This document shows, one piece after another, positions 21,133 through 44,748 of a stretch of 64,000 nucleotides of DNA. Each line of letters opens with the position of its first letter. Within the stretch, counting starts at the first letter, position 1. The notes under the pieces were generated by a model. It had not been told where the DNA came from, did no database searches, and saw nothing but the letters and a program-made list of their open reading frames with translations. This DNA is from Palleniella intestinalis (GTDB lineage: Bacteria; Bacteroidota; Bacteroidia; Bacteroidales; Bacteroidaceae). Location of the stretch: assembly GCF_013166595.1 (NCBI RefSeq), contig NZ_JABKKG010000003.1, positions 427,846 to 491,845 of the forward strand, read 5' to 3'. A program made the translations under genes and the position numbers.

Positions 21133-22899
21133 TTATTTTAGTTTCATGTTTTGCCAACTGCTTGCCACAGACTGAGAAGGTATGATTGTTGGAGTCTGCT
21201 TTTTGTTGTTGATGACGACAGACTGGCGCTTGACTTGCTTTGTCACAAATTTGGAAAGTTCTCCTAATGTGACATTTCCTCCTGTCTGCTGCAGTTCCTT
21301 CAGCAGATAATATGTGAACAGACCGTGCCCTTTCTCTTCAATCTGGTGTGCAGTCTCATCACCTTGTGCTGCGGAGAATACAACCATATTGCCTTGCGGT
21401 GCTTCCTCCTTTACTTTTATGGCAACACCACGTGAGGAGGCAAGCATATTGTCTTCACGTTTCGCGCCACTGAAGCATGCATCAAGGAAGATGATTGACG
21501 ATTTCAGTTTAAGTGCGGCAATGTCTTTGTACAGTTTGGCAAGGCTGTATCCGGTTGTTGTGATGTCAGAGGCATTGCCATCTACCGGCAAAAGATAAGC
21601 TGTGTTTTGCTTCTCGTCAGGGAAACCATGTCCTGCATAGTAGAATATTACACTTGCCTCACCGTCGTAGGCGTCTGCAATGCTCTTGACCTTTTCCACA
21701 GCTGTTATGATATTGCCGAATGTAGCGTCTTCATAAAGGTTTATGTTCTTCTCCGGTATGCTCAATGTCTTGTTGCAATACTCTTTGAACATTCGTCCGT
21801 CATTAAGGGAATAGGGCACAGGAGCATCAGGATAATTCTCGTTGGCTATGATAAACGCGAATGTGTTTTCATTCTTCTGATTTCCTGATGGAATATTCTT
21901 GTCTACATCAGAGTTTGGCGCCGGATAGCGTGAGACGGCAGGACCGCCAACTTTCTTTTTGCTTACGGCAACAGTGTTTTCTGCTATCTGAATTTTTGAA
22001 CCGTCTTTAAGTGGATTCTTTATCAGTTTCACTTGTCCGTCCTTCTTTACTGTCGCCACATCATTTGTGAAAACCGATGCTTCATCATATTGGCATGGAA
22101 TTATTTCCTTTCCATTGGCATAATATCCAAATTTACCATTCTTCTCCACAAGAAATATTCCATCGCTTGCAACAGCTGATCTTTTGCTATATCCTAAGTT
22201 AAGAGAAAGAACTTCTTGACCATTAGCATCAAGAAAGCCTCTATATTCTCCTTTTTGAACTATAAAATAATCATTATCTTTAACAAGGTAACTATATTCA
22301 CTCTCAGGAATAATCACATGGCCATTCTTGTCGTAAAACCCTTTTTTCCCATCTTCAGTTTCTACTCTGAAGCCTTCTTTTCCATCCTTTCCTTTTGGTA
22401 GTACACTTTCATATTTTACAGGTATTATGACTTTGCCATTTATGTCAAAATAACCTTTTTTTCCATGTAATTTGCATTTGTAAATATTGCCATCTTTCCC
22501 AATGTAATCATATATGGCAGGTATAATAACCTTTCCGCTCTTCGCATCGTACACGCCATACTCTCTTACTTCTTTTGATTTCTCCAACCTAACTTCATAC
22601 CTGTTGAGTTCTTTGTCAAAGGACATGTATATGCCTTCGTAGATGCATGGAAATATTATCTTTCCATATTTATTTACCGCCCCTTCCTTTAAATAAGTAT
22701 TTTCGCTAAAAGTTCCATAGTGGTCATTTTCATGCCAAGAAGCAAGGTCATATTTGGGCGGTACTATCCACTGCCCATTTCTGTCAACAAATCCATACTT
22801 TCCATTTTCGCTTTTTTTTGCACTTGTTATTTGTGAATACGCTGTTTGAGAACAAAATAATAAGATTAATGCTGTGATTATATTTTTCGTAATTTTCAT
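21133..22899 (-). CDS. Exported WG-repeat protein with active caspase-like (C14) domain
   Basis: A 588-aa protein with signal peptide (about 1-22). Residues 30-300 hold some seven WG/KWG-type repeats (G-Y/F-x-D-x-N-G-x-x-I-I-P pattern, e.g. GYFDINGKVIIPVKY). Residues 345-560 form a caspase-fold peptidase with an intact dyad: H424 in YYAGHG and C475 in LDACFSG. Substrate pocket residues near SAAQGDETAHQ are also present. The repeats may sense or bind a partner, and the peptidase cut it; in bacteria such proteases are linked to stress, defence and cell death, but exported ones are little studied. It overlaps the upstream pseudo-caspase gene by 4 nt. Confidence 0.82.
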   Translation of the reverse strand: MKITKNIITALILLFCSQTAYSQITSAKKSENGKYGFVDRNGQWIVPPKYDLASWHENDHYGTFSENTYLKEGAVNKYGKIIFPCIYEGIYMSFDKELNRYEVRLEKSKEVREYGVYDAKSGKVIIPAIYDYIGKDGNIYKCKLHGKKGYFDINGKVIIPVKYESVLPKGKDGKEGFRVETEDGKKGFYDKNGHVIIPESEYSYLVKDNDYFIVQKGEYRGFLDANGQEVLSLNLGYSKRSAVASDGIFLVEKNGKFGYYANGKEIIPCQYDEASVFTNDVATVKKDGQVKLIKNPLKDGSKIQIAENTVAVSKKKVGGPAVSRYPAPNSDVDKNIPSGNQKNENTFAFIIANENYPDAPVPYSLNDGRMFKEYCNKTLSIPEKNINLYEDATFGNIITAVEKVKSIADAYDGEASVIFYYAGHGFPDEKQNTAYLLPVDGNASDITTTGYSLAKLYKDIAALKLKSSIIFLDACFSGAKREDNMLASSRGVAIKVKEEAPQGNMVVFSAAQGDETAHQIEEKGHGLFTYYLLKELQQTGGNVTLGELSKFVTKQVKRQSVVINNKKQTPTIIPSQSVASSWQNMKLK

Positions 22900-24452
22900 A
22901 ATTTTTGAGTTTGTAATGATTGCTTTATCTGTTCTGAAATCTTTATGTCTGTTTTTTGTACATTATTAAATAGTTTTAGTGATTCCTTACCTACAGATGA
23001 AGTCATTTCATCTAATAATGATTTGATATTTGTTTTGCCTGAAGTTTTATTTAAATGATTCAAAATAGAAAAAGTAAGCAGTCCATGTCCCAAAGTCTTA
23101 CTTGAATAACAGTTCCCGCTCTCACTCCCTAATATAAGTATCATATTGTTTTCTACATGAACTACATCGTTATTTTTTATATTAACTCCACGCCCTTCAG
23201 CTATGTTTTTCCCATTTTTATCCATTCCATTAAAAGGGGCGTCAATGATAGTTAAGGTATATGTTGTTTTCAACTTTCCAAGATTGCCGCACAACTGCTC
23301 TAACGAAATAGCAGTAGAAGACAAAGCGGAAAGAGATGCATCAGACGGCAATAGGTATCTTGCGTTAGTCTTAGCATCGGAGATTCCTAAACCAGAGAAA
23401 TAAAATATAATCTTAGCCTCTCCATCATACACGTCAGCTATGTCTTCAATTTGTTTAATCGCTTTTTGTATATTGCCAAAAGTTGCATCTTCATAATATC
23501 TTATATTATTTACAGGAATCCCCAATGTCTTTTTACAATATTCTGTAAATATTTTTCCATCATTTACAGAATAATCAGAAGCTGGGAAACTGCTATAATT
23601 CTCATTGGAGAATATAAATGCAAATGTATTATCACTTTTGTTTTTTGTTTCTGGTATATTAGCATCAATAGCCATAGCAAGTTCGCTTCTCGTTGACATT
23701 TTGCCAACCAAAGGGTTATGTATTATTTTTGTAGTTCCTTTTTCGGTAACTTGCGCTATACCATCTTTGAAAGGAGTAGCATGTGTATATTTTGCAGGAA
23801 TGATTTCCGTTCCGTCTTCACTTAAATACCCCCATTTACCACCTTTAACTATTGCACCATCTGAAGTATTACTATGGTCTATAATTTTACCGCCAATATT
23901 AAACAAAAACATTTTTTCTTTTTCTGAGAATTGATAACTAATATAGTCATAAATAAGAGGTGTTAAAAATTTCTCATTTTTAACATCATAAAGTGCCATT
24001 TTCGCATTCTTTGGATAGTCAAGATTTCCCAGAGGGGTATCGTTTTGAGGACCTTTGCCTATGAGATAAATACCTTTGTCACTGTTCACTTTTTGTATAT
24101 ATCTGTATTCATGTGGAAGAAGAAGCTTTCCTTTATTGTTGTAAAGCCCCATTAACCCTTTTGTCCATCCTATGTCGTGTTCTGTTTCTGCTGTGATAAT
24201 TATTATACAATCTTTTTCAAACACAATACCATTAACATTTTGAATAAATGGAATAATGATTTCTCCATTATTGTCACATAAGCTTTGTGTGCGCCAATCA
24301 CCTTTTTTCTGTATTACATAAAATCCTTCGCTTTGGTAAGATACATTGGTTCTTCCATATTTCGCTTCTAGTTTTGCCGTTATGGCTTCGTTTTCCTGTG
24401 CATTGCATATCAATACAGGTAATAAGAATAGAATAAATAATACTTTTTTCAT
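22896..24452 (-). CDS. Exported WG-repeat protein with inactivated caspase-like domain (pseudo-caspase)
   Basis: A 518-aa paralogue of its downstream neighbour: signal peptide (1-18), WG repeats (about 40-245), then a caspase-fold domain aligned over NTFAFIFSNENYSSFP, YYEDATFGNI and GHGLLTFSILNHL. Both catalytic residues are lost: the YYAGHG block reads YFSGLG (L355 for His) and DACFSG reads DAPFNG (P406 for Cys). The frame is intact and fold residues are kept, so this is a catalytically dead homologue rather than a decayed gene. It could be a regulatory subunit or decoy for the active caspase. It overlaps both neighbours by 4 nt, implying coupled translation. Confidence 0.82.
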   Translation of the reverse strand: MKKVLFILFLLPVLICNAQENEAITAKLEAKYGRTNVSYQSEGFYVIQKKGDWRTQSLCDNNGEIIIPFIQNVNGIVFEKDCIIIITAETEHDIGWTKGLMGLYNNKGKLLLPHEYRYIQKVNSDKGIYLIGKGPQNDTPLGNLDYPKNAKMALYDVKNEKFLTPLIYDYISYQFSEKEKMFLFNIGGKIIDHSNTSDGAIVKGGKWGYLSEDGTEIIPAKYTHATPFKDGIAQVTEKGTTKIIHNPLVGKMSTRSELAMAIDANIPETKNKSDNTFAFIFSNENYSSFPASDYSVNDGKIFTEYCKKTLGIPVNNIRYYEDATFGNIQKAIKQIEDIADVYDGEAKIIFYFSGLGISDAKTNARYLLPSDASLSALSSTAISLEQLCGNLGKLKTTYTLTIIDAPFNGMDKNGKNIAEGRGVNIKNNDVVHVENNMILILGSESGNCYSSKTLGHGLLTFSILNHLNKTSGKTNIKSLLDEMTSSVGKESLKLFNNVQKTDIKISEQIKQSLQTQKL

Positions 24453-26414: not shown

Positions 26415-27089
26415 TTACCAACCGAGAATGTCGTCAAGTTTCTTCTGTATCTCTTCTCCTGTTTTCTCAAGGTCCTTGCGCACAGCTTTCTTTGCAGCGG
26501 CTTTTGCCATATTGCCATTGTAGGCGATTCTGACAAGCACCTCTTTGTTCTTGTTTGCTTTGGTACGGTAAAGCTCTATTACGGTTATGGTGCGTCCTAA
26601 ACTTTGTGAGATAAGATTTTTTGCGCCCATGACGCTTTGTGTCACGGATGCTGCTTCTTCGGCTGCAAGCTGCTTGTTGGCAACCGTGTTTTCTATCAGT
26701 GCGGTAATCTCTGTCTGTATCTGTCCGGCAAGGTTCTGCTTGGCAAGTTCAAGAGCCTGCATCTTTGCTGCGTCGTAGTTCTCGCCTATGCTCATAGCCT
26801 CACCCATAAGATATTTTGGGTACATGTCCGTGTCGTATTCCATTTGCATAAGATACGACTTGTCCAATTGTTTTTCCAAAGGCAGTGCGCCAGGTGCTGC
26901 TGTCCATCCTTCTTTTGCCAGTTTCTTAGCTTCTTTGCGTGCTGCTTTTGTGGCTTTCTCATTAAGTTCGGACTTGGATGCTTTGTGGATAGCTTCCCTC
27001 TCTTTGATTTGTTCTTTTGTGATTTGTGCTGATGTAGTGGTGAACATTCCGGCAAGCACCATGACTAAAAAAACTCTTGCTGCTTTCAT
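26415..27089 (-). CDS. Exported LPP20-like protein, first gene of the caspase operon
   Basis: About 224 aa from the ATG at 27089 (MKAARVFLVMVLAGMFTTTSA-QI, a clear signal peptide); the longer frame to 27200 would start inside the upstream RNA terminator and is rejected. A lysine/glutamate-rich helical region (about 25-60) is followed by an Ala-rich alpha/beta region (EAMSIGENYDAAKMQALELA ... VLVRIAYNG) typical of LPP20-like outer-membrane or periplasmic proteins. No lipobox cysteine is visible. It lies about 80 nt downstream of the terminator of the structured RNA at 27172-27498, so read-through or an internal start must serve it. Confidence 0.65.
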   Translation of the reverse strand: MKAARVFLVMVLAGMFTTTSAQITKEQIKEREAIHKASKSELNEKATKAARKEAKKLAKEGWTAAPGALPLEKQLDKSYLMQMEYDTDMYPKYLMGEAMSIGENYDAAKMQALELAKQNLAGQIQTEITALIENTVANKQLAAEEAASVTQSVMGAKNLISQSLGRTITVIELYRTKANKNKEVLVRIAYNGNMAKAAAKKAVRKDLEKTGEEIQKKLDDILGW

Positions 27090-27171
27090 ATTATATACAT
27101 TATTATAATATGTCCGCAGCTCCCGAACCGGACGGATTGATGATGAAGTGATTCTTATGTGTGCTATATAC

Positions 27172-27498
27172 AAAAAAAGCGCGGGATCTGTACCTGTCAC
27201 TTATCCCACACACTTGGCCTTCGCATTGCCATTCCATCAGGGATAAGCAACGCAGAGGCCCACGCCGATATGTATATACGCCCAATATGTACACCTACGA
27301 AACGTAAGCATACAATAAGGGCTGTCCAGATACATACCCATGAACATCTACTGTTGCTTTATCGTGTGACGGAATGTTGAAGTTGCGAAGTTCAGTGTGT
27401 CACAGATAAAACGTCAAGTAAACGTTTTCCTATATATAGTGCATCCCCCTCCTCACTCGCCTCTGCATTATAGACAGAATACCGGAATTGTTGGTTTG
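27172..27498 (-). ncRNA. Structured leader RNA / small RNA, copy 2 of a two-member family
   Basis: About 327 nt from the promoter at 27505-27512 to a U-tract at 27178-27172. It shares exact blocks with 40580-41005: CGTTTACTTGACG (27412-27424), CATATCGGCGTGGGC (27258-27272), plus near-identical AAAGCAACAGTAGATGT and CAATGCGA. Stems are kept by compensatory change: AAACG/CGTTT, TGTGAC/GTCACA, and GGCCT/AGGCC around CGTTG...CAATG. It ends in a hairpin GTGTGGGAT...ATCCCGCGC plus seven U. It does not resemble tmRNA, RNase P, 6S or SRP RNA to my reading. Either an attenuator leader of the caspase operon or a separate small RNA. Confidence 0.65.
27179..27211 (-). terminator. Intrinsic terminator of structured RNA copy 2
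   Basis: Nine-pair stem GUGUGGGAU / AUCCCGCGC (with two G-U pairs) directly followed by UUUUUUU at 27178-27172 on the minus strand. Confidence 0.75.
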
Positions 27499-27504
27499 CG
27501 AGGA

Positions 27505-27512
27505 CAAAGGTA
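27505..27512 (-). promoter_or_regulatory. -7 box for structured RNA copy 2 and the caspase operon
   Basis: TACCTTTG on the minus strand; expected start about 27498, some 410 nt upstream of the first ORF. Confidence 0.6.
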
Positions 27513-30766: not shown

Positions 30767-33700
30767 CTAATCCTTTATTTCAATGATTTTGTTTGGCATG
30801 ACAAGCCATAGGAAACCGCTGACATTACGGTGTCCCATTTTCTTTAGCAATGCCATGTATTGTCGCACTTGGGTGATGTAGCTTTCCTTGAAGGAGTGGA
30901 GCTTGAAATCCACTACTATGGTGCGTTCACCGTCAGTCATCACACGGTCAGGACGCTGCTCAAGGTATTTCCCGGATTCTTTGTCATAGGAAAGTATGGC
31001 GCATTCATTGTAGATTTGCCATCTTCCGGAGAACCATTCTGCGATTTGCTTGTTTGTCAGCGCCGCCTCTATATGTTGTCTTAAGGCTTCCGCCGTGATG
31101 TCCTGTCCGTAGAGCAGCCCCTCCATTTCGAGGCGTAGGAGTGCGGCAGGGATGTCGTCGGCAGTACGGATTTGGGCGAACAGGCTGTGCAGGATATTAC
31201 CCATTTGTATGTACTGTGAGCGTAATTGCTCAGTCTCCTGCTCGTCGGTGAGTATGAAATCCTTGCTTCTGTTGCTTTCAAGAAACACAGGGTGCCGGGT
31301 GCTTGTCTTGATGTTTATTGTCATTGGGGTGAACGGCTGCATGAACACGTTCTGTGTCTCCTTCTGTACAGTCTCCCCATGTCCTTCCCACGGCTCTCCA
31401 TAGGAGAACACACCGTCGTTGTATATGCCTATACCTCTTTTTGAGAGGTTATTGATTGTCGTCTCAATCAGTTTGCCACGATAAGCACCTGACTGCTTGG
31501 AAAGGGTGGAGACATACAGACTCTCCACGGCTCTTGTGAAGGCAACGTAAAGGAGATTGAGGTTGTCCACCTCATTCTGCAAGTGCTCTTCCCAATAATA
31601 AGGTTCGTAGATAGTGTTCCCCATTTGCTTTTCACTGCTGTATATCGGGATGACTTTCAGCATGTTGAACGGTGCTGTCTGAGGCTTGCACCAAAGCAGG
31701 CTCGACAGTTCGAGTTTCCAGTCGCAGAACGGGATGATGATGTGCGTGTACTCAAGTCCCTTACTCTTGTGGATAGTAAGGATGCGTATGCCGTTGTCGG
31801 CATCGTTCTCCACTTTCTTTTTGTGCATGGTCTCGTCCCAATAGTCAATGAATGACTGGAGGTCACCCATGGACTTTTGAAGGAATTCCGTCACGCAGTC
31901 AAGGAAATAGCATACGAATGCGCTTTGGCACTCCAACTTTTCAAGGGAGAAAATGGAGTACAGCTCTTCGCATAGCTGGTAGAGTGGCATGGAAGCAAGT
32001 GTCTCAAACTCCTCGGTGTAACGTTGTGGCAAGACTTTTTCGGTAAGCATCTCGTTCTGTTCGGCAGTGCTTTCAAGCACATAACGTTGGTAATAAAGCG
32101 AAAGTCTTGCACGCGTGATTTCGTCTTGCGGAAGCAATAGCAGCCGTATGGCGTCGATTATGATGAGTGCGGCAGGCGATGCATTGAGCAGGAAAGCCTC
32201 GTTGGAAACCAGCTTCAGGCTGTTGATGATAGGGGAGGGGTGGGCACGGAACTGCTCCATGCAATGGTTCACGATGTCAGGGATATGCCCGTTTGTTCGG
32301 ACAAGTATGGCTATGTCGCGTTGTTGCGCACCTCTTTCTATCAGCGAGATGACAGTGTCAGCGACATATTGCAGCGTTTCGCTCTCATAGTCCGTTTTGT
32401 CAAGAACCTTCACTTCGACATATCCGCTTGCCTCCTTGCCTTCCGGATACTCCTGCTCCACATCCTCGTAGCCATGTCGCAGGCTTCGGACATCATCCTC
32501 CTGACAATTTTCTTCCACTGATTTGCAGACATCTTCTGTCGCTGTGGTGAAAAAAGCGTTATTGAAATCAATCACTCTTGTGGCAGAACGGCGGTTGGTC
32601 TGCAGGTGCTTGACTTCTGTCTCTTCACGCATGCCAGGCGCAAACTCCTCCTTTATGTTGTTAAGAAGCCGCCAATCGCCTGAACGCCAGCGGTAGATAC
32701 TCTGCTTCACATCACCCAAAATAAGGTTCTCATGTCCCTTTGCCATACAGTCGTTGAGCAGAACCTTGAAGTTCCGCCACTGTATGCGTGATGTGTCCTG
32801 AAACTCATCAATCATTATGCTTTGCAGGAGAGCACCGATTTTCTCGAAGATGAATGGCGAATCGGAATCCTCAATCATCTTTGCCAGCAAGGTTTGTGTG
32901 TCAGAAAGCAGGAAACGGTCCTGCTCGCGGTTGCTGAAGTCAATCTCTTCCTTTATGGCACGCAACAGGCGCAGTTTGGAGAGATGCTTCAATGTCAATG
33001 ATGCGCTGCGTGCCTGAATCTGCAAGACAGGGAACGACTCCATTGCCTTCAGGAACATGGGGCGGAGCTTCTCACGGCAGAACTCCTGCAAATGTGCCGG
33101 ACTGTTTTTCTTCAGCCATTTGCTTGCGTCAGTGTCGTCCTGGTCCAGGCATCGTTTGACATAGGAGTTCATGGCCAGTTCCGTGACAGGTTTTGTCGCC
33201 ATGTTCCTGATGAATGTGCCGACACCTTTCGCACCTTGGTAGAAGACTGTCTCGTCATAACCATGGCGCTCTATCTCGTCCCACATTGCCTGTCCCTGAC
33301 TGTTGACGGTCTTTGTGCCCTTTTGTATGAGGGAGCGCAGTAGGGTGGAGTATTCTGTGTAGAAATCATTCTCATTGTTGCCGAATTTCTCCATGAACTC
33401 GTCTGCATGCTCTTTGTACTCGTCACTGATAAGCGTCTCGCCGAAAGTCTTTATCTGTCCGATGATGTTCCACGCCTTTTCCTCGTCCATTGATGAGCGG
33501 ACATAGTCAAGAATCCAAACCAGTTCACGGTCGTTCTCCTGCAAACTGTCTATCCAGCGGTCGACAGCCTCATGCTCTATCTCTTTGTCGTTGAGCTCGA
33601 TGCGGAGGTTTGGAGTGAGGTCAAGTTCACGTGCAAGATTGCGCAATACGGTCTGGAAGAATCTGTCGATGGTCTCCACACGGAAGAAATTATAGTGGTG

Positions 33701-34042
33701 CAAGAGCAGTTTCAGAGCCTCCGCAGCACGTTCCCTGACAAGTTTTTCCGTGACCTTTCCATTGGTGAAAGGCTGTTCGGCATTCTGCTGTTGCAGTTCG
33801 GGCAGCATGACATGGAGGTAGACATCAGAGTCCTTCAGCCCATGCGATATGCCATAGAGTTGCGACAATATGCGCATCTTCATCTCTTCCGTGGCTTTGT
33901 TGGTGAAAGTCACGGCAAGGATGTGTCTGTAGCTTTTTGGGTTGGCGATGAGACGCTTGATGTATTCTATTGCCAGCCGGAACGTCTTTCCGGAGCCGGC
34001 ACTCGCTTTGTAGATAGTCAGCACGTGGTTTCTATTGTTCAA
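30767..34042 (-). CDS. addA: AddA-like UvrD-family helicase-nuclease
   Basis: A 1091-aa SF1 helicase. Motif I is KASAGSGKTFRLA (residues about 10-22), motif Ia LAVTFTNKATEEMK, motif II in IMIDEFQDTSRIQW, later motifs ILTIHKSKGLEYTHIIIPF and NLLYVAFTRAVESLYV. The C-terminus carries a RecB-type nuclease with RPDRVMTDGERTIVVDFK (catalytic Asp...Lys). With AddB it resects broken DNA ends for RecA and degrades foreign linear DNA. Transcribed from a promoter at 34099-34106 and followed by addB. Length is a little below Firmicutes AddA (about 1200 aa) but complete. Confidence 0.87.
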   Translation of the reverse strand: MNNRNHVLTIYKASAGSGKTFRLAIEYIKRLIANPKSYRHILAVTFTNKATEEMKMRILSQLYGISHGLKDSDVYLHVMLPELQQQNAEQPFTNGKVTEKLVRERAAEALKLLLHHYNFFRVETIDRFFQTVLRNLARELDLTPNLRIELNDKEIEHEAVDRWIDSLQENDRELVWILDYVRSSMDEEKAWNIIGQIKTFGETLISDEYKEHADEFMEKFGNNENDFYTEYSTLLRSLIQKGTKTVNSQGQAMWDEIERHGYDETVFYQGAKGVGTFIRNMATKPVTELAMNSYVKRCLDQDDTDASKWLKKNSPAHLQEFCREKLRPMFLKAMESFPVLQIQARSASLTLKHLSKLRLLRAIKEEIDFSNREQDRFLLSDTQTLLAKMIEDSDSPFIFEKIGALLQSIMIDEFQDTSRIQWRNFKVLLNDCMAKGHENLILGDVKQSIYRWRSGDWRLLNNIKEEFAPGMREETEVKHLQTNRRSATRVIDFNNAFFTTATEDVCKSVEENCQEDDVRSLRHGYEDVEQEYPEGKEASGYVEVKVLDKTDYESETLQYVADTVISLIERGAQQRDIAILVRTNGHIPDIVNHCMEQFRAHPSPIINSLKLVSNEAFLLNASPAALIIIDAIRLLLLPQDEITRARLSLYYQRYVLESTAEQNEMLTEKVLPQRYTEEFETLASMPLYQLCEELYSIFSLEKLECQSAFVCYFLDCVTEFLQKSMGDLQSFIDYWDETMHKKKVENDADNGIRILTIHKSKGLEYTHIIIPFCDWKLELSSLLWCKPQTAPFNMLKVIPIYSSEKQMGNTIYEPYYWEEHLQNEVDNLNLLYVAFTRAVESLYVSTLSKQSGAYRGKLIETTINNLSKRGIGIYNDGVFSYGEPWEGHGETVQKETQNVFMQPFTPMTINIKTSTRHPVFLESNRSKDFILTDEQETEQLRSQYIQMGNILHSLFAQIRTADDIPAALLRLEMEGLLYGQDITAEALRQHIEAALTNKQIAEWFSGRWQIYNECAILSYDKESGKYLEQRPDRVMTDGERTIVVDFKLHSFKESYITQVRQYMALLKKMGHRNVSGFLWLVMPNKIIEIKD

Positions 34043-36516: not shown

Positions 36517-37182
36517 TCAATGTGATTGGACATAATTTATAAATCTTTTTATTTCATTCGTTTGTTCTATAAGTAGGTGTTCGTCCAAAGAGTTTAGAAG
36601 TGATGGTGATGTTTTCAGTTTGCCATATTTTACTTTTTTCTTCACTCCATTTTTGTTGTAATTGAAAAAGTGTGAGATGATTGTTGATAAAACCTCATCA
36701 GAATGTTTTATATTTTCAACATGTTTGCCTTTTAGAAGTTTATGGTCTGATATGGCTGTCTCTTTATGTTTGCGAATATATTGTTCGTATGCACCCCACT
36801 TTTCTATAGCATTCGGTTGACTAAGTATCCATGCTTCCATTTGCTGTATCATAAAGAAAATTCTTTCTTTACTTTCATTTGGTACTGTAATATGGGATTT
36901 ACCTTCTATGTTTTCTAATTTGTCATAGAATAATTTAATCGTGCTACAGTCGCCATCAAGATCCGTAAAAAGATATGTTTCAGAATTATGTGCAGATAAA
37001 AACTGGTTTACAGAGTTACGATTTGAAGTTGACATAATTACAGTAATGCCAATTTCATCACCTAATGCTGCTTTGAATATTCGATGAAGGGAACGGCGAA
37101 GACTTTCCGTATTCTGTGTAACCGTTTTTGCTGCATTCTCGGTGTAAGCACCGCCCTCAACAATAATTGTTATGTCTACCAT
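36517..37182 (-). CDS. DUF4276 (TOPRIM-like) protein, partner of the adjacent ATPase
   Basis: About 221 aa from the ATG at 37182 (MVDITIIVEGG...); the longer frame to 37242 would sit inside the ATPase gene and is less likely. IIVEGG with the following Asn/Thr-rich stretch, YLFTDLDGDCS and FMIQQMEAWILSQPNAIEKW fit DUF4276, a TOPRIM-related domain of OLD-type nucleases. Such proteins sit beside AAA ATPases and act in phage defence or DNA processing. The start overlaps the ATPase stop by 7 nt, so the two are translationally coupled. Confidence 0.72.
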   Translation of the reverse strand: MVDITIIVEGGAYTENAAKTVTQNTESLRRSLHRIFKAALGDEIGITVIMSTSNRNSVNQFLSAHNSETYLFTDLDGDCSTIKLFYDKLENIEGKSHITVPNESKERIFFMIQQMEAWILSQPNAIEKWGAYEQYIRKHKETAISDHKLLKGKHVENIKHSDEVLSTIISHFFNYNKNGVKKKVKYGKLKTSPSLLNSLDEHLLIEQTNEIKRFINYVQSH

Positions 37183-38384
37183 CTCTTTGCACCTATTTGA
37201 CCATTCATCCACATCTGTCCTGGAAGATATTCGCCTTCCCAATCTGGGAAATCATCCTCAGTAACTCGTTTGATAATAGATTCGTTCTCTTTGTTTTTCT
37301 CAAAGATTATAATGTCATCCAATTCAAACTGATTCAATAGCAAAGGCGAGTGTGTTGCCATAATAATCTGACTATTACGACTTGCTTCTCTCATCATCTC
37401 TGCAAGTAAAGAAATCATATCAGGATGTAAGCCTCCCTCTGGTTCGTCCAGTGCTATGAAATCACCACGCATGGGATTAAAGAAGATGGTCATCAAGAGA
37501 ATAAAACGTAATGTACCGTCTGACATATGTAATGATGTTACAGTGCGTGAAAGATTCTTTTCTGAAATGGATAAGAAAAGTTGACTACCGAAATTGCGGA
37601 ATTCTATACTTTTGTAAGCAGGGTTGACTTCGTTCATTGTTTCTTCAATGCGTTTGAAACTATTACTGTATTCATTACGCAAATGATTTAGTAAATGCAC
37701 GAGATTGTCGCCATGACGTATTAATTTTGTATTTGAACTATATTCACACGGACGACGCAAAATACTATTTGTACTTGTGTCAAAATGTCCATAAAGGCTC
37801 ATGCTTTCTACTGCTTTCCTTATTATATAAGTGGGCAAGAAACGTTGCGGGTCTGTAATTTGTCGTAAAACCAACTCCTGCCCTGATAATTCTCCATTCC
37901 TATATTTTTCATTGCGTATTTGACCACCACCTTGTCTAACACTGATAAGTCCGATTCCATTACTGAATTCTAAATAACGGAATGTACCTTCCATTTTTTT
38001 ATTTTGTGAGAGAAGACTCTCACTTATCATGTATGAGGATGACAAACGGCTAATTTTTATAGTATAGATAACCTCAGACTTAAATGGTGAACTTTTGTTT
38101 ATACTTTTCAAATATTTCTCGTCGAATACATAAGTAACTTCAATATCACCATTTTCTTGCTCGCCATTAAAATTTACAACATTTGAAAATCCTCCCCATA
38201 GTTTTTGGAAAACAGATTCAAAACCAATGCCTACTACACCTTCATACAATAGGCGTAATGCATTTATAACTGATGTCTTTCCACTACCATTTATGCCTAA
38301 GAGGATATTCAGTCCATTATTCAACTTTATATCTGTTCTTTCGTGAAAAGAAAAAAAGTTCTTAAGAATTATTCTTTTAATCAT
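37176..38384 (-). CDS. OLD-like ABC/AAA ATPase
   Basis: A 402-aa SMC/ABC-type ATPase: Walker A GINGSGKT (residues 30-37), Walker B in FIALDEPEGGLHPD, and the switch histidine in IMATHSPLLLNQF. There is no coiled-coil insert; the middle is an alpha/beta insert (about 60-250) as in AAA_21-type proteins. The nuclease part is supplied in trans by the DUF4276 gene. Similar two-gene systems (PARIS, AbiL, RloAB, Gabija-like) sense phage and cut nucleic acid. Promoter at 38426-38433. Family clear; defence role inferred. Confidence 0.8.
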   Translation of the reverse strand: MIKRIILKNFFSFHERTDIKLNNGLNILLGINGSGKTSVINALRLLYEGVVGIGFESVFQKLWGGFSNVVNFNGEQENGDIEVTYVFDEKYLKSINKSSPFKSEVIYTIKISRLSSSYMISESLLSQNKKMEGTFRYLEFSNGIGLISVRQGGGQIRNEKYRNGELSGQELVLRQITDPQRFLPTYIIRKAVESMSLYGHFDTSTNSILRRPCEYSSNTKLIRHGDNLVHLLNHLRNEYSNSFKRIEETMNEVNPAYKSIEFRNFGSQLFLSISEKNLSRTVTSLHMSDGTLRFILLMTIFFNPMRGDFIALDEPEGGLHPDMISLLAEMMREASRNSQIIMATHSPLLLNQFELDDIIIFEKNKENESIIKRVTEDDFPDWEGEYLPGQMWMNGQIGAKRW

Positions 38385-40564: not shown

Positions 40565-40572
40565 TATCTTTG
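40565..40572 (+). promoter_or_regulatory. -7 box for structured RNA copy 1
   Basis: TATCTTTG (from TTTTTGTATCTTTGCATC); expected start about 40580. Confidence 0.65.
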
Positions 40573-40579
40573 CATCGAT

Positions 40580-41005
40580 TTCCTCATTGTCCTCTAAATG
40601 GAAGCACCACCCCAAGTGGAACTCTGGTAGAGGGACAAGCAGCCTACGCCGGGCGGAAGCATGAAGCTCTATGCAAAATAGGGCGGCATGCCGAAGCGGG
40701 TATTGGGTGGGAAACACGACATAATGGAAAGGCGTTTACTTGACGCTTGTCTTTGGCTGTACGAATCTCGCAAATTCAAATCCTGTCAGAGAAAAGCAAC
40801 GGTAGATGTCCAGGGGTGTGAAAGTTCGCATCCCTTATGTGGTTTTATACGCATGCGGCAGTCCGTGTGTGTAGGCGTGGCTACATAAGGGTATGTTGTC
40901 TTCATATCGGCGTGGGCTCTGACGTTGTTCGTTCTACAGGATTGGGCAATGCGAGAGCCTCGTACAGCGGGATGAACAACAGGTAGGTTCTCCACGCTTT
41001 TTTTT
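40580..41005 (+). ncRNA. Structured leader RNA / small RNA, copy 1 of a two-member family
   Basis: About 426 nt. A 5' hairpin pairs TTGTCCTCTA (40587-40596) with TAGAGGGACAA (40628-40638). Then come the blocks shared with 27172-27498: CGTTTACTTGACG (40733-40745), AAAGCAACGGTAGATGT, CATATCGGCGTGGGC (40903-40917) and GGCAATGCGA. Stem CUUUGGC/GUCAGAG replaces UGUGAC/GUCACA of the other copy, GGCUC/GAGCC replaces GGCCU/AGGCC, and CCCTTATGT/ACATAAGGG is a perfect 9-bp stem here. It ends in AGCGGGAT...CTCCaCGC plus eight U, 75 nt before a secreted-protein gene. Long non-shared segment 40640-40730 is specific to this copy. Function unknown. Confidence 0.68.
40966..41005 (+). terminator. Intrinsic terminator of structured RNA copy 1
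   Basis: Imperfect stem GCGGGA / TCTCCaCGC followed by TTTTTTTT at 40998-41005. Confidence 0.6.
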
Positions 41006-41079
41006 GTGCCGTCAACAGAGAGATTTATATTTGTACCGGGCTTGTTTAGGAGAGCGCAGGCCGCAAAATCTATTGCGAC

Positions 41080-42780
41080 ATGAGAAAAACTTTTCTATTC
41101 GTTTTCATGGCATTATTCATCACCTGTGTTTGCCATGCACAGACTGCGTTCTATCAAGGTTTCCGCTACAATCTCAAGAAGGAAGACAAAACGGCATCTC
41201 TCGCTTCTGTTGGCTCAGAACCAGGGGCTGATGTTGTTATTCCGAGCACTATCAAGGTCGGAATAAACCATGGTATCACCTCTTCAAAATGGACAGACTC
41301 AACTGGCAAATGGAGCTGCAGTGACAATGGTTGCACATTGGAAGAGACAATTCCATTTATTGAATCTTGGAGTAATGACTACAAATACGAATACACTGTT
41401 CGGTGTACTTTTCATGGTTCAGGAGCCATTAACTTTATTATAACTCTCCTCAGTGAAGACTATAGTTCAGAAGGAAACAACATGGGTTCCAACCATATGC
41501 TGAATGTTGGTAAACTGGATCAAGCGTGTACAATGTATGACTACTCTGTGAGATACGACGGTAATGCAGGCACAGTTTCTGCACTGGTTGAAGTGCCAAA
41601 TGAAGGGGAACACTTCGTTGAGTTCTATTTCCGAAGACAGGTGTTTTACAACAAGATACCTGACCTGCATTACAGAGCTGTATCTTTGGCCCTTGCTCCG
41701 GTGGAACAGCCTACTGACTTTACAGTGACATCAATAGGAAAGGGAGCTTTCAGTGATTGCAGTTCGCTGACAACTGTGAGTGTTCCGGAGACAGTGACGA
41801 CAATAGGAGCCGAAGCTTTTTCCGGATGCTACAATTTGAATTCTCTAAAATTGCCGGAGGCATTGACAACAATAGGAGCTGAAGCTTTTTCCGGATGTTC
41901 TAATCTGAATTCTCTAAAGTTGCCGGAGACATTGAAGACAATAGAATACGGAGCTTTCTCAGGATGCCGAAATCTGAAGTCTTTAAAGCTGCCTGACGAA
42001 ATAGGGTATATAGGAGAAGCTTTGTTCAAGAACTGCAGTTCGCTGACATCAATGAGTTTCCCTAACCAAATCACAACGATTCCTGCTTCGACATTCATTG
42101 GTTGTTCGTCTTTGGAAAGCGTGGAATTACCTGAGAATCTGAAAATCATTGACTCTGGAGCATTTCTCGAATGCATAGGCTTGAAGGAAATAACTCTTCC
42201 ACAAAGTTTGACAGTGCTGGAGTCATGGGGTATGAAAGGATGCTCATCACTGGAGAAACTTACAATTCCCGAAAATGTAGAAAGCATTGGCACTATCTGC
42301 TTTGGCTACAATGACAATCTTAGAGAACTGACATACAATGCACGGAACTGTACTAAATGTGGCTTGCAGGATTTCCCTATCCTGAAGTACACTCCAAAAC
42401 TTACAACTTTGCACATCGGTGAGAATGTGGAGTCAATACCATTGTATGCATTCAGCGGATGCTCTTCTCTGACTGATATTTATATACATACTCCCGCTCC
42501 TCCGGCAGCGCTTGACTTGGCTTTCCTTGACATTGACAAGGGAAAATGTCGTCTGCATGTGCCCACAGGCAGCGAAGATGCATACAAGAATGCGGACGGT
42601 TGGGACGATTTCTATAATGTGACAGCCATTGAAGGTGTGACTATGGACGGACAGAAGAGACCGCTGCATGTCTATGACCTGACGGGGCGTCATGTCTGTA
42701 CTGTCATGAAGCGTGATGAGTTGCAGGCACTGCCAAAAGGGGGGTACATTGTCAACGGACAGAAAGAGATAGTGAGATGA
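41080..42780 (+). CDS. Secreted BspA-like leucine-rich repeat protein
   Basis: A 566-aa protein with signal peptide (about 1-20, VCHA-QT). Residues 22-215 hold an N-terminal domain with ITSSKWTDSTGKWSC, HMLNVGKLD and EGEHFVEFYF, related to domains of its neighbour. Residues 215-500 are about twelve LRR_5 repeats of 23 aa (FSGCxNLxSLKLPExLxTIGxEA). Several repeats are nearly identical in DNA, e.g. around 41800-41960. The C-terminal tail (VYDLTGRHVCTV ... LPKGGYIVNGQKEIVR) resembles a type IX secretion/sorting signal. Such proteins bind host proteins or other cells. The start is 75 nt after the terminator of the structured RNA. Confidence 0.82.
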   Translation: MRKTFLFVFMALFITCVCHAQTAFYQGFRYNLKKEDKTASLASVGSEPGADVVIPSTIKVGINHGITSSKWTDSTGKWSCSDNGCTLEETIPFIESWSNDYKYEYTVRCTFHGSGAINFIITLLSEDYSSEGNNMGSNHMLNVGKLDQACTMYDYSVRYDGNAGTVSALVEVPNEGEHFVEFYFRRQVFYNKIPDLHYRAVSLALAPVEQPTDFTVTSIGKGAFSDCSSLTTVSVPETVTTIGAEAFSGCYNLNSLKLPEALTTIGAEAFSGCSNLNSLKLPETLKTIEYGAFSGCRNLKSLKLPDEIGYIGEALFKNCSSLTSMSFPNQITTIPASTFIGCSSLESVELPENLKIIDSGAFLECIGLKEITLPQSLTVLESWGMKGCSSLEKLTIPENVESIGTICFGYNDNLRELTYNARNCTKCGLQDFPILKYTPKLTTLHIGENVESIPLYAFSGCSSLTDIYIHTPAPPAALDLAFLDIDKGKCRLHVPTGSEDAYKNADGWDDFYNVTAIEGVTMDGQKRPLHVYDLTGRHVCTVMKRDELQALPKGGYIVNGQKEIVR

Positions 42781-42849: not shown

Positions 42850-44748
42850 ATGAAACGGAAAGTTTTATTTCTTTTCAGCTTGCTCGTTGCCTTTGCGACG
42901 ACGCTGGCTGCAAAAACTGTGCCCAATGCTGGGCTTATCTCTTCAAAATGGGAGAAGGTGTGCGACAATTACGGAATATGGGATTTGGTCGATGGTGTTT
43001 ACATCTACCACAAATCTGTGAGAACAAGGGTCCCGGGAGACAAAATAAGGTGTAAATTCAAGTCGGACGGTCCTGTAACGTTTAGGCTCAGCACCAAAAG
43101 GGATGTGAACTATATGGGGCGCTTGTATATTGTTGCCGGTCGCATGGACACATCATGCAATGAAACAACCACAGACCTCGAGGCGACAACCATAGATGCC
43201 AATGACGAGCCGATAACCGTGACTTACTATCCTACCGACACCGAAGAGCATAGTGTTGAGTTTGTCATCTGCACAACATCACCGTTCATGGATGTGGGAC
43301 AGTCCACATGCTCTGTGATGTTGGAAAAAGCACCAGTCTTTGATTTTGAATACAGCAATGTCGCTTATGATTTCCTGTCGCTGGAGGACAAGACCGTTCA
43401 GGTGGTTGCCGGTGGCGACTATTCCGGAGAGGTTGACATCCCGGCTTCAATCACTCCTGACTTCAATGAGAAAATAACTTCATCGAAATGGGAACAGTTG
43501 AGTGGCAGCTGGACATATAATGGAAACGCTTACGAGATAACACCGACAGAGACTGGCGAATATCGTATGCGCTATACCTTCAAGTCACCGGAGCAGGTGT
43601 TCTTTGTTCTGGAAAACATGGGACTGAAGTCACAATCTTACCTGCTGGTTGGCAAACTTGATACAGAATGCACCAAGGATAACTATGCTATCAGCTTCAA
43701 AGATAAGGACAACTCCGGACTGACCAAGCATATTGTCACTCCGGCTGACGGTGAGGAGCATTTTATAGAGTTCCTGTTTGTAGCCCAACAGCTCTCTACC
43801 GGTGAAAAGCCTTATGGAGCAAAGGTGGCGCTGATGCAACCGGCACGTTATTTCGTAACTACTGTAAAGAAATGGGCATTTCAGGCATGCAACGAACTTA
43901 CCAAGGTGACAATAGGCGACAAGGTGACAACAATAGAGGAAGAGGCATTCCAGAAATGCACCGCTCTTGTTGATGTGACATTGCCGGAAAGTCTCACCAC
44001 TCTTGGTACAGCTGCATTCCGTGGTTGTACTGCACTGAAGGACATCTCTGTGCCAGGCTCTGTGGAAACCATAGAGATGAATGTGTTCGCTAACTGCTCA
44101 TCATTGGAGAATGTTGGCTTCAATGAGGGGTTGACAAAGATAGCTTCCATGGCGTTCGAGAACTGTACGGCTTTGGATAATCCGGTTTTCCCTTCAACAC
44201 TGGCAACAATTGTGGACTATGCGTTCCAAGGTTGTACTGGTTTGAAAACATTGACAATTCCGGAGCAGATTCAGACTATATACGAAGGCGCTTTCAAGGA
44301 CTGTTCCTCTCTTGCCATTGTAAACTACAATGCCACAGAAGCTAACAAAATATCCAGTCTGACATTTGGCGGTTGTAAGTCTGTTTCGACTGTTAACATC
44401 GGTGCCAACGTGAAATCTATACCTGGGAAACCTTTCTATGGGACATCAGCTGTTAAAACTGTCAACGTTTTTGCTGTGACACCGCCTGTCGCTGATTCCG
44501 AAGTGTTCAACTCAAAAACTTGGAGTGGCACACTATACGTTCCAAGTGACGCAATAGATGCTTACAAAGCGGCGTATCCATGGAATCAATTTAGAACCAT
44601 CAAGGCAATGGAGTCAACTGCTATCACCGCTTCAACTGTTGAAGCTACAGCCGTTGGCTCTCCTGCATATAACTTAAGCGGGCAGCAGGTAGACGGTAAT
44701 GCCAAAGGCTTCGTTATCGTCGGTGGAAGAAAGGTTGTAAAAAAGTAA
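42850..44748 (+). CDS. Secreted BspA-like leucine-rich repeat protein with duplicated N-terminal domain
   Basis: A 632-aa paralogue with signal peptide (1-20, TLAA-KT). The N-terminus has two copies of a roughly 130-aa beta domain: residues 28-165 (LISSKWEKVCDNYGIW ... EEHSVEFVICTT) and about 195-325 (ITSSKWEQLSGSWTY ... GEEHFIEFLFVAQQ). The first BspA-like protein has only one. Residues 335-560 are LRR_5 repeats (FQKCTALVDVTLPESLTTLG) and the C-terminal tail ends in FVIVGGRKVVKK after YNLSGQQV, like a type IX signal. It lies 69 nt behind its paralogue, likely co-transcribed, and a terminator follows at 44862. Confidence 0.8.
   Translation: MKRKVLFLFSLLVAFATTLAAKTVPNAGLISSKWEKVCDNYGIWDLVDGVYIYHKSVRTRVPGDKIRCKFKSDGPVTFRLSTKRDVNYMGRLYIVAGRMDTSCNETTTDLEATTIDANDEPITVTYYPTDTEEHSVEFVICTTSPFMDVGQSTCSVMLEKAPVFDFEYSNVAYDFLSLEDKTVQVVAGGDYSGEVDIPASITPDFNEKITSSKWEQLSGSWTYNGNAYEITPTETGEYRMRYTFKSPEQVFFVLENMGLKSQSYLLVGKLDTECTKDNYAISFKDKDNSGLTKHIVTPADGEEHFIEFLFVAQQLSTGEKPYGAKVALMQPARYFVTTVKKWAFQACNELTKVTIGDKVTTIEEEAFQKCTALVDVTLPESLTTLGTAAFRGCTALKDISVPGSVETIEMNVFANCSSLENVGFNEGLTKIASMAFENCTALDNPVFPSTLATIVDYAFQGCTGLKTLTIPEQIQTIYEGAFKDCSSLAIVNYNATEANKISSLTFGGCKSVSTVNIGANVKSIPGKPFYGTSAVKTVNVFAVTPPVADSEVFNSKTWSGTLYVPSDAIDAYKAAYPWNQFRTIKAMESTAITASTVEATAVGSPAYNLSGQQVDGNAKGFVIVGGRKVVKK

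Follow-up and report, generated by a model that had tools for sequence, protein, structure and literature searches.

A family of structured RNA leaders with competing terminator strands, probably attenuators, before unrelated genes in Bacteroidales

Our analysis suggests that a structured RNA of about 300-450 nt, found before many unrelated genes in Bacteroidales, is a family of 5′ leaders that act in cis, refolding to set either termination or read-through ~70 nt before a start codon. Judging from the sequences compared here, we give this reading a probability of about 0.68; a cis-acting attenuator leader is the most likely kind of element, and the family probably represents a new, large class of such leaders. 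If this is true, the family would be a large and overlooked class of gene switch and one of the widely used cis-acting RNA elements of gut Bacteroidales, sitting ahead of genes for capsule-type antiterminators, adhesin-like LRR proteins and regulators as well as defence-like genes.

The window analyzed here comprises 64,000 nt of contig NZ_JABKKG010000003.1, and coordinates below are window positions unless prefixed C or L. It contains two copies of the RNA, which sit where an earlier sequence-only reading had put them: copy A at 40580-41005 (+ strand) and copy B at 27172-27498 (- strand). The blocks CGTTTACTTGACG and CATATCGGCGTGGGC occur in identical order in both copies, both have a hairpin and a U-tract at the 3′ end, and TAnnTTTG elements lie just upstream of each (40565-40572, +; 27505-27512, -). 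As expected for the non-coding transcripts that had been proposed, neither RNA is filled by any ORF of at least 80 amino acids. That proposal of a two-copy family identified a real structured family and understated its size, as the same genome holds eight copies.

A DNA search of this genome with copy A found other copies with E-values down to 3.5e-20. We built two models from different columns of the RNA, R1 from the 3′ domain and R2 from an upstream domain that we call the rod. R1 and R2 agree on eight loci in the genome, which are the eight top matches of R2 (the next stands at E=0.008); this agreement, together with the DNA search, shows that the likeness of the window copies is more than chance. 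One DNA match, C10:263134, was discarded as chance, as its surroundings hold no such RNA and it is absent from the lists of both models; weaker DNA matches (L014-L018) were left out of the family. The features of the two window copies and their surroundings, with the evidence for each, are as follows.

40565..40572, + strand: copy A, predicted promoter -7 element TATCTTTG (sequence)
40580..41005, + strand: copy A, leader RNA, with its 5′ end as first proposed (sequence, DNA search, R2)
40642..40652, + strand: copy A, strand a GCCTACGCCGG, an 11-nt complement of the c box (complementarity)
40720..40820, + strand: copy A, rod domain P1-P4 (R2, 83.6 bits; covariation)
40903..40917, + strand: copy A, c box CATATCGGCGTGGGC, pairing with a or with the terminator 3′ strand (predicted pairing)
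40915..40959, + strand: copy A, stem H2, 40915-40927 with 40947-40959 (covariation)
40924..40934, + strand: copy A, pk1 GTTGTTCGTTC, which can pair with the terminator 5′ strand in place of t2 (covariation)
40970..40980, + strand: copy A, pk2, overlapping the terminator 5′ strand t1 (pairing analysis)
40987..40997, + strand: copy A, terminator 3′ strand t2 GTTCTCCACGC (sequence)
40998..41005, + strand: copy A, U-tract (sequence)
41026..41033, + strand: copy A, spacer element TATATTTG, a possible second promoter (1 of 57 loci with the motif in the spacer)
41039..41062, + strand: copy A, post-terminator hairpin (by eye), whose loop strand d, GGAGAGC at 41049-41055, pairs with t2 with one G-U
41080..42780, + strand: BspA-type LRR protein behind copy A (Pfam LRR_5, 1.5e-64), with a second at 42850-44748
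27505..27512, - strand: copy B, predicted promoter -7 element TACCTTTG (sequence)
27172..27498, - strand: copy B, leader RNA as first proposed (sequence, DNA search, R2)
27333..27438, - strand: copy B, rod domain (R2, 86.7 bits)
27258..27272, - strand: copy B, c box (sequence)
27241..27251, - strand: copy B, pk1 GTTGCTTATCC (sequence, covariation)
27196..27206, - strand: copy B, pk2, overlapping t1, GGATAAGTGAC (sequence, covariation)
27179..27189, - strand: copy B, terminator 3′ strand t2 (sequence)
27172..27178, - strand: copy B, U-tract (sequence)
27112..27133, - strand: copy B, post-terminator hairpin (by eye; sequence)
27117..27125, - strand: copy B, strand d CGGGAGCTG, with 5 contiguous bp to t2, or 8 of 9 with one mismatch by eye
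26415..27089, - strand: first gene behind copy B, exported-looking, without a Pfam family
22896..24452 and 21133..22899, - strand: two caspase-domain proteins following the first gene behind copy B

The small protein behind copy B (KASK..NEKA..APGALP-like, by eye) heads at least five more loci (L029, L166, L168, L169, L190), and this recurrence behind the RNA indicates that operon type and leader seem to stay together. The region separating copies A and B encodes an AAA_21 (AbiEii-like) ATPase (37176-38384, -) and a PD-(D/E)XK protein (28020-30707, -) that adjoins a 1091-aa ORF (30767-34042, -). Copy A also contains an internal 21-nt inverted repeat (76% complementary) between 40756-40776, in the apical region of the rod, and 40948-40968, around the 3′ strand of H2, which is possibly a further long-range pairing. 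We considered phase variation and rejected it: copies A and D have no inverted repeat of at least 14 nt flanking the promoter, and the one AT-rich pair at copy B (27086-27109/27684-27707, 75% complementary) was taken for chance.

Model searches of Bacteroidales genomes, as the sequence-only reading had suggested, found further homologues with covariation. R1 matched 133 of 200 genomes in a genus sample, 125 of 201 in a family sample (24 of 30 genera, with up to 16 copies per genome) and 31 of 295 in an order sample, each including the genome of the window; these searches ran under stricter filters that lose weak members. Titles among the matches listed in a pattern scan name Prevotella, Bacteroides, Phocaeicola oris, Mediterranea, Parabacteroides, Alistipes, Muribaculaceae and Paludibacteraceae, and the records are mostly metagenome-assembled. 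Judging by these relatives, the genome of the window is probably a Prevotella-like member of Bacteroidaceae. Plasmid-borne copies are present in Phocaeicola dorei (one of them in the cultured strain CL06T03C03), P. vulgatus and Bacteroides finegoldii, with no annotated feature beneath the match, and the P. dorei and B. finegoldii plasmid copies were confirmed by R1 and R2. Among viral contigs, 35 exact pattern matches included none with the 3′ domain as judged by a motif filter. A faecal scaffold labelled as phage, MT839469 (L272, 2865-4259, +), carries the RNA before a PAPS-reductase-like gene (by eye; both models match), and group II intron pieces (RF02001, RF01998) lie upstream of one leader copy (L206, 350-646, -).

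The sequence-only reading had matched these transcripts to no RNA class, and comparison with Rfam 15 likewise gave no family match. At the gathering score there were no matches within the window, and at E<=10 nothing relevant lay over either window copy, including no T-box match among all Rfam families up to that value. The leader in 20 further loci also gave no Rfam match (22 copies tested in all).

For comparative analysis, the pattern scan gave at least 119 stretches, of which a strict filter kept 28 and a lax filter 51; one (L035) was dropped by eye, and the remaining 50 plus seven copies from the genome of the window form a set of 57 sequences. Among these 50, L029 carries a Clostridium label, probably through a binning error. 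Among 88 loci from the model searches, the motif filter located 79, and the remaining nine were matched by both models. R1 and R2 were run on 85 loci, with three omitted as cut short (L192, L193, L225), copy D not repeated (L144) and the eighth copy of the window's genome added (L232); some of the 85 duplicate others, and six duplicates were removed before ORF spacings were counted. The rod and the 3′ domain travel together, as R2 matches all 85 of the R1-found loci it was given. Across ten genomes hand-picked for many copies or distant kinship, 87 of 101 R2 matches and 87 of 99 R1 matches adjoin in the expected order, leaving 14 R2 matches without R1 and 12 R1 matches without R2 at the cut-offs used. 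We read ten of the 14 lone R2 matches, and found seven with a terminator-like end, one cut by a contig end and two that look degenerate (L276, L285).

The rod is a long, interrupted hairpin of ~105 nt that appears in most per-sequence minimum-energy folds (L116 and L130 differ). Its helices are P1, of CAUA/UAUG type; P2, GGCGUUUAC/GUAGAUGCC; P3, GCUUUGUUCUUGAC/GUCAAGAACAAAGC; and P4, whose loop reads, for example, CUCGCAA. Folding does not favour a local hairpin around CGTTTACTTGACG, since GGCGUUUAC pairs with GUAGAUGCC across the rod. In an alignment of 55 of the 57 sequences (L084 and L115 were left out for an insertion), 81.7% of cells pair, both sides change at 21 of 32 pairs, and 114 double-change cells are found versus 46 after shuffling, a count reached in 0 of 500 shuffles. 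Sliding the partners lowers pairing to 38-44%. A model-fitted alignment of 93 matches, eight of them weak or wrong-strand, gives 237 double-change cells versus 74, though an alignment of this kind leans towards the model. RNAalifold predicted no pairs on a plain MAFFT alignment of the rod, probably because the helix strands were misregistered, and we took the consensus from per-sequence folds instead. The insertion that L084 and L115 carry in the rod measures roughly 27-30 nt and may form an extra hairpin. The compensatory stem changes first noted between the two window copies can be located in P3 and in stem H2, both of which covary in the wider alignments; the proposed placement between the two shared blocks does not hold for H2, which sits 3′ of the second block.

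In the 3′ domain, two alternative stems, t1:t2 and c:t2, end at the U-tract, and a third helix, pk1:t1, can take the 5′ strand of the terminator. In t1:t2, both sides change at six of eight pairs. An 11-bp helix joins pk1 to t1 and to the loop behind t1; 97.6% of its 622 cells (57 sequences) pair, and six of the 11 pairs change on both sides, with 74 double-change cells versus 15.9 after shuffling. The c box is almost invariant; 98.7% of c:t2 cells pair, mostly through G-U, both sides change at one of seven pairs, and slid partners still reach 68-71%. A held-out set of 69 further distinct sequences gave 43 versus 11.6 double-change cells for pk1:t1 and 36 versus 11.3 for t1:t2, with 0 of 300 shuffles as high in either case. 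H2 also exceeded all 300 shuffles in this set, yet varies on both sides at only one of 13 pairs, and covariation in c:t2 did not go beyond shuffles (38 of 300 as high).

At three shared t1 columns, t2 and pk1 are both possible partners in 122, 116 and 112 of 126 sequences respectively; at a fourth column, this holds for only 39. At the level of sequence, a predicted antiterminator helix that excludes the terminator is present: pk1:t1 and t1:t2 share columns and both covary, and c:t2 is a second possible terminator stem. When the 126 sequences were folded, the best-matched helix was t1:t2 in 48, pk1:t1 in 65, c:t2 in nine and none in four, and folds that best match pk1:t1 often include c:t2, the two being nested together. 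Mean energies constrained to t1:t2, pk1:t1 and c:t2 are -37.1, -38.0 and -38.9 kcal/mol (unconstrained, -40.2). As these constrained energies lie within about 2 kcal/mol of each other, H2 with t1:t2 and c:t2 with pk1:t1 are two near-equal folds. Copy B prefers H2 with t1:t2 in its minimum-energy fold; that of copy A fits none of the three helices and has a terminator-like hairpin in a shifted register. Because both alternative stems adjoin the U-tract, the web of pairings does not by itself show which fold reads through.

Near the 5′ end, strand a (for example, CCCACGCCGA) complements the c box. An a:c helix of at least 9 contiguous bp is found in 52% of 117 loci, compared to 7% of dinucleotide shuffles. 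It spans 11 bp in copy A and 6 bp, the chance level, in copy B, which thus belongs to the roughly half of members in which a:c is not above chance.

What lies behind the leader is diverse. Matches to the 121 downstream proteins analyzed (of 122; one small ORF, at L050, was left out) include, among the 25 commonest Pfam families listed, NusG (18), LRR_5 (10), LytTR (4), kinases (2) and AbiH (1). Cro-type regulators and other defence-like proteins are also present, and a few of the proteins fit PADLOC models. In four loci (L023, L043, L124 and L202; L043 is from Parabacteroides), the gene directly behind the RNA encodes what looks by eye like a small Cro/C1-like helix-turn-helix protein. We found no support for the suggestion that operons of surface or exported proteins are, as a class, what the RNA controls: by a crude signal-peptide test, 57 of 122 downstream proteins look exported, no clear excess over background ORFs at these loci (122 of 300).

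The commonest downstream class is UpxY antiterminators, at 20 of 121 proteins (NCBIfam, E<=1e-6; the other 101 fall below that level), and copy D in the genome of the window itself precedes a UpxY gene (C2:82290). This raises an unlikely though serious alternative, that the leader is the RNA target of UpxY-class antiterminators (NusG paralogs), with UpxY boarding the polymerase there and taking it past the terminator, at their own operon and perhaps on other copies in trans. The c box finds a complement in the start context of 16 of 20 NusG-like loci versus three of 103 others (two of these three are UpxY by eye), which fits this alternative. In the spacers concerned, CGATATG or CCGATTTG complements the invariant CATATCGG of the c box and covers the likely start codon; as the c box is invariant there, this complementarity reflects conservation, not covariation. 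Against a UpxY target, five in six copies precede other genes, and the genome's other UpxY gene (C2:70161) has no R1 or R2 leader match nearby. The UpxY model, which picks up other NusG proteins as well, matches 172 of 200 genus genomes at E<=1e-10 and 132 of 200 above its cut-off, so UpxY is too common for its presence to be telling.

Promoter and spacing bear on whether the RNA belongs to the gene behind it. Of 132 loci, 121 have TAnnTTTG before the RNA, against 20.4 expected in shuffled sequence, and the motif is not enriched in the 80 nt behind the terminator (two of 132 loci; 5.9 expected). Among the first 57 loci, the only one with TAnnTTTG in the spacer is copy A itself, whose TATATTTG suggests that its gene may have a second promoter and may not depend on read-through. 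A TTTG lies ~19 nt upstream of this spacer element, at the end of the U-tract. The gap of 75-80 nt initially given for both copies is about right, with 74 nt (A) and 82 nt (B) from the U-tract to the first ATG. Of 129 distinct loci, 122 have an ORF of at least 60 amino acids on the same strand within 400 nt behind the RNA (four are too short to tell and three have none), and this ORF starts 60-79 nt after the terminator in 56 of 122 and 30-99 nt in 93 of 122, taking first ATGs rather than annotated starts and counting the same strand only. The sequences thus place a predicted intrinsic terminator between promoter motif and start codon, as in an attenuator.

These data also address a second alternative, which we consider improbable: that the RNA works in trans on its own, as a regulatory or structural molecule, with the downstream gene incidental. 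Its own promoter motif and terminator, large conserved fold and up to 16 copies per genome are all found in other large non-coding RNAs. The preferred same-strand ORF spacing, the lack of promoter enrichment in the spacer and a spacer strand matched to the terminator (strand d, below) instead tie the RNA to the mRNA behind it. The sequence-only reading had offered both a terminating leader and an independent regulatory RNA; the promoter motif before and not after the RNA, the ORF spacing and the terminator-matched strand favour the former, and the latter is disfavoured.

A classical metabolite riboswitch with an unusually long aptamer would account for a rod with conserved internal and apical loops before a terminator switch. 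Such a riboswitch would be expected to serve one pathway; the 121 downstream proteins match 56 Pfam families with no evident shared pathway, making this third alternative a rather remote one.

Many spacers contain, past the terminator, a strand d (for example, GGGGAGUC) that complements t2 of its own locus and often sits in a hairpin loop. The mean t2:d match score is 5.84 within loci versus 4.96 +/- 0.09 between swapped loci (maximum 5.16 of 200; n=128), and 6.09 versus 5.04 (maximum 5.29 of 300) in 106 non-NusG loci; these swapped controls leave relatedness between loci in, and the excluded NusG loci were picked in part by eye. At the 40 of 106 non-NusG loci that were readable for both motifs, C in t2 faces G in d in 17 and A in one, and U in t2 faces A in 13 and G in nine (Fisher p=0.0006). 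The match score is at least 5 in 86 of the 106 loci, leaving 20 without a match, and d is mostly unpaired inside a hairpin in 36 of the 86 matched spacers (18.7 expected). Divergent members keep the pairing with other letters (by eye): CAAATGCCC with GGGCATTTG in L278, and GAGATACC with GGTATCTC in L279.

As d sits beyond the terminator, it can act only after read-through, or in trans. The hairpin-loop layout is known from antisense systems, and a fourth alternative is that the terminated leader is a trans antisense RNA acting on d of read-through mRNAs. A strand d that matches the local t2 and often occupies a hairpin loop is compatible with this alternative. We consider it quite unlikely, since t2 is held in a stem in the terminated RNA and pairing in cis over ~40 nt should win. 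Finally, a mobile or repetitive element (MITE- or REP-like) without regulatory role would explain a multicopy, patchy (31 of 295 order genomes) and plasmid-borne distribution, and is very improbable given that the copies are diverged with compensatory change in helices of the rod and 3′ domain, share no terminal repeats within the genome (by eye) and have a preferred position before start codons.

We therefore return to the leader as a cis-acting attenuator, for which we propose the following mechanism. Pairing of t2 with t1 or c beside the U-tract would stop transcription. With c held by a and t1 held by pk1, t2 would be free and the polymerase would read through; the a:c helix, which about half of members could form, would serve to release t2 from c. 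In the read-through mRNA, d may capture the free t2, latching the open state or gating translation. In UpxY-headed loci, the likely start codon region CCGATAUG, not d, complements the c box and could play the corresponding part. Given that no common pathway is evident among the downstream genes, our bet is that the trigger is a protein acting on the rod or on RNA polymerase, not a metabolite.

More tentatively, the leader could be a two-gate switch before unrelated accessory operons, in which termination comes first and a hairpin or the UpxY start codon then captures the freed strand, so that only open-fold transcripts would be translated. We regard this elaboration as possible but doubtful. 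If the attenuator reading is true, the family would account for unannotated gaps before accessory operons and give a handle on the timing of their expression. It also poses a testable question, namely the purpose of the terminator-matched stretch beyond the terminator.

We compared the leader with known RNAs and regulatory systems. It is not described in the portions available to us of PMC8040213, PMC2864571, PMC11109978, PMC7366714, PMC7819879 and PMC7160235, and a term search of PMC8632094 found none of four Bacteroidales words in the text. The consulted part of PMC8040213 reports 3161 candidate RNAs with tables in supplements, and pieces of the leader family may be among them. A riboswitch candidate at a tetrahydrofolate-formylating gene, described in the part of PMC11109978 seen, differs from the leader in being tied to one gene class, and the main text of that paper contains no word beginning 'Bacteroid'. 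The B. fragilis capsule loci have a leader before upxY with premature termination before the gene, according to the part of PMC7819879 consulted. The leaders described here resemble these UpxY-controlled leaders in belonging to the same bacterial order, in lying before upxY and in a predicted stop of transcription before the gene, and are set apart, as far as the description goes, in that most copies, five in six, precede other genes. FopS of Bacteroides thetaiotaomicron is reportedly a family of paralogous sRNAs. GibS of the same species is a 145-nt trans-acting sRNA, in the excerpt of PMC7366714 consulted. Both are alike to the leader as Bacteroides RNAs, and GibS is set apart by its description as a trans-acting sRNA.

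EAR, put and the LoaP dyad are processive antitermination RNAs. Like them, the leader is a folded RNA that could act on polymerase before diverse or long operons; it differs in carrying its own terminator and in matching no Rfam family. The trp attenuator, the T-box and riboswitch expression platforms are terminator/antiterminator attenuators, and share with the leader a strand common to two exclusive helices before a U-tract. Compared to those attenuators, the leader has no Rfam match, no evident common pathway and an extra matched stretch beyond the terminator. A leader with competing terminator and antiterminator is of a known kind; new, to our knowledge, are its promiscuous use and the stretch behind the terminator that is matched to it.
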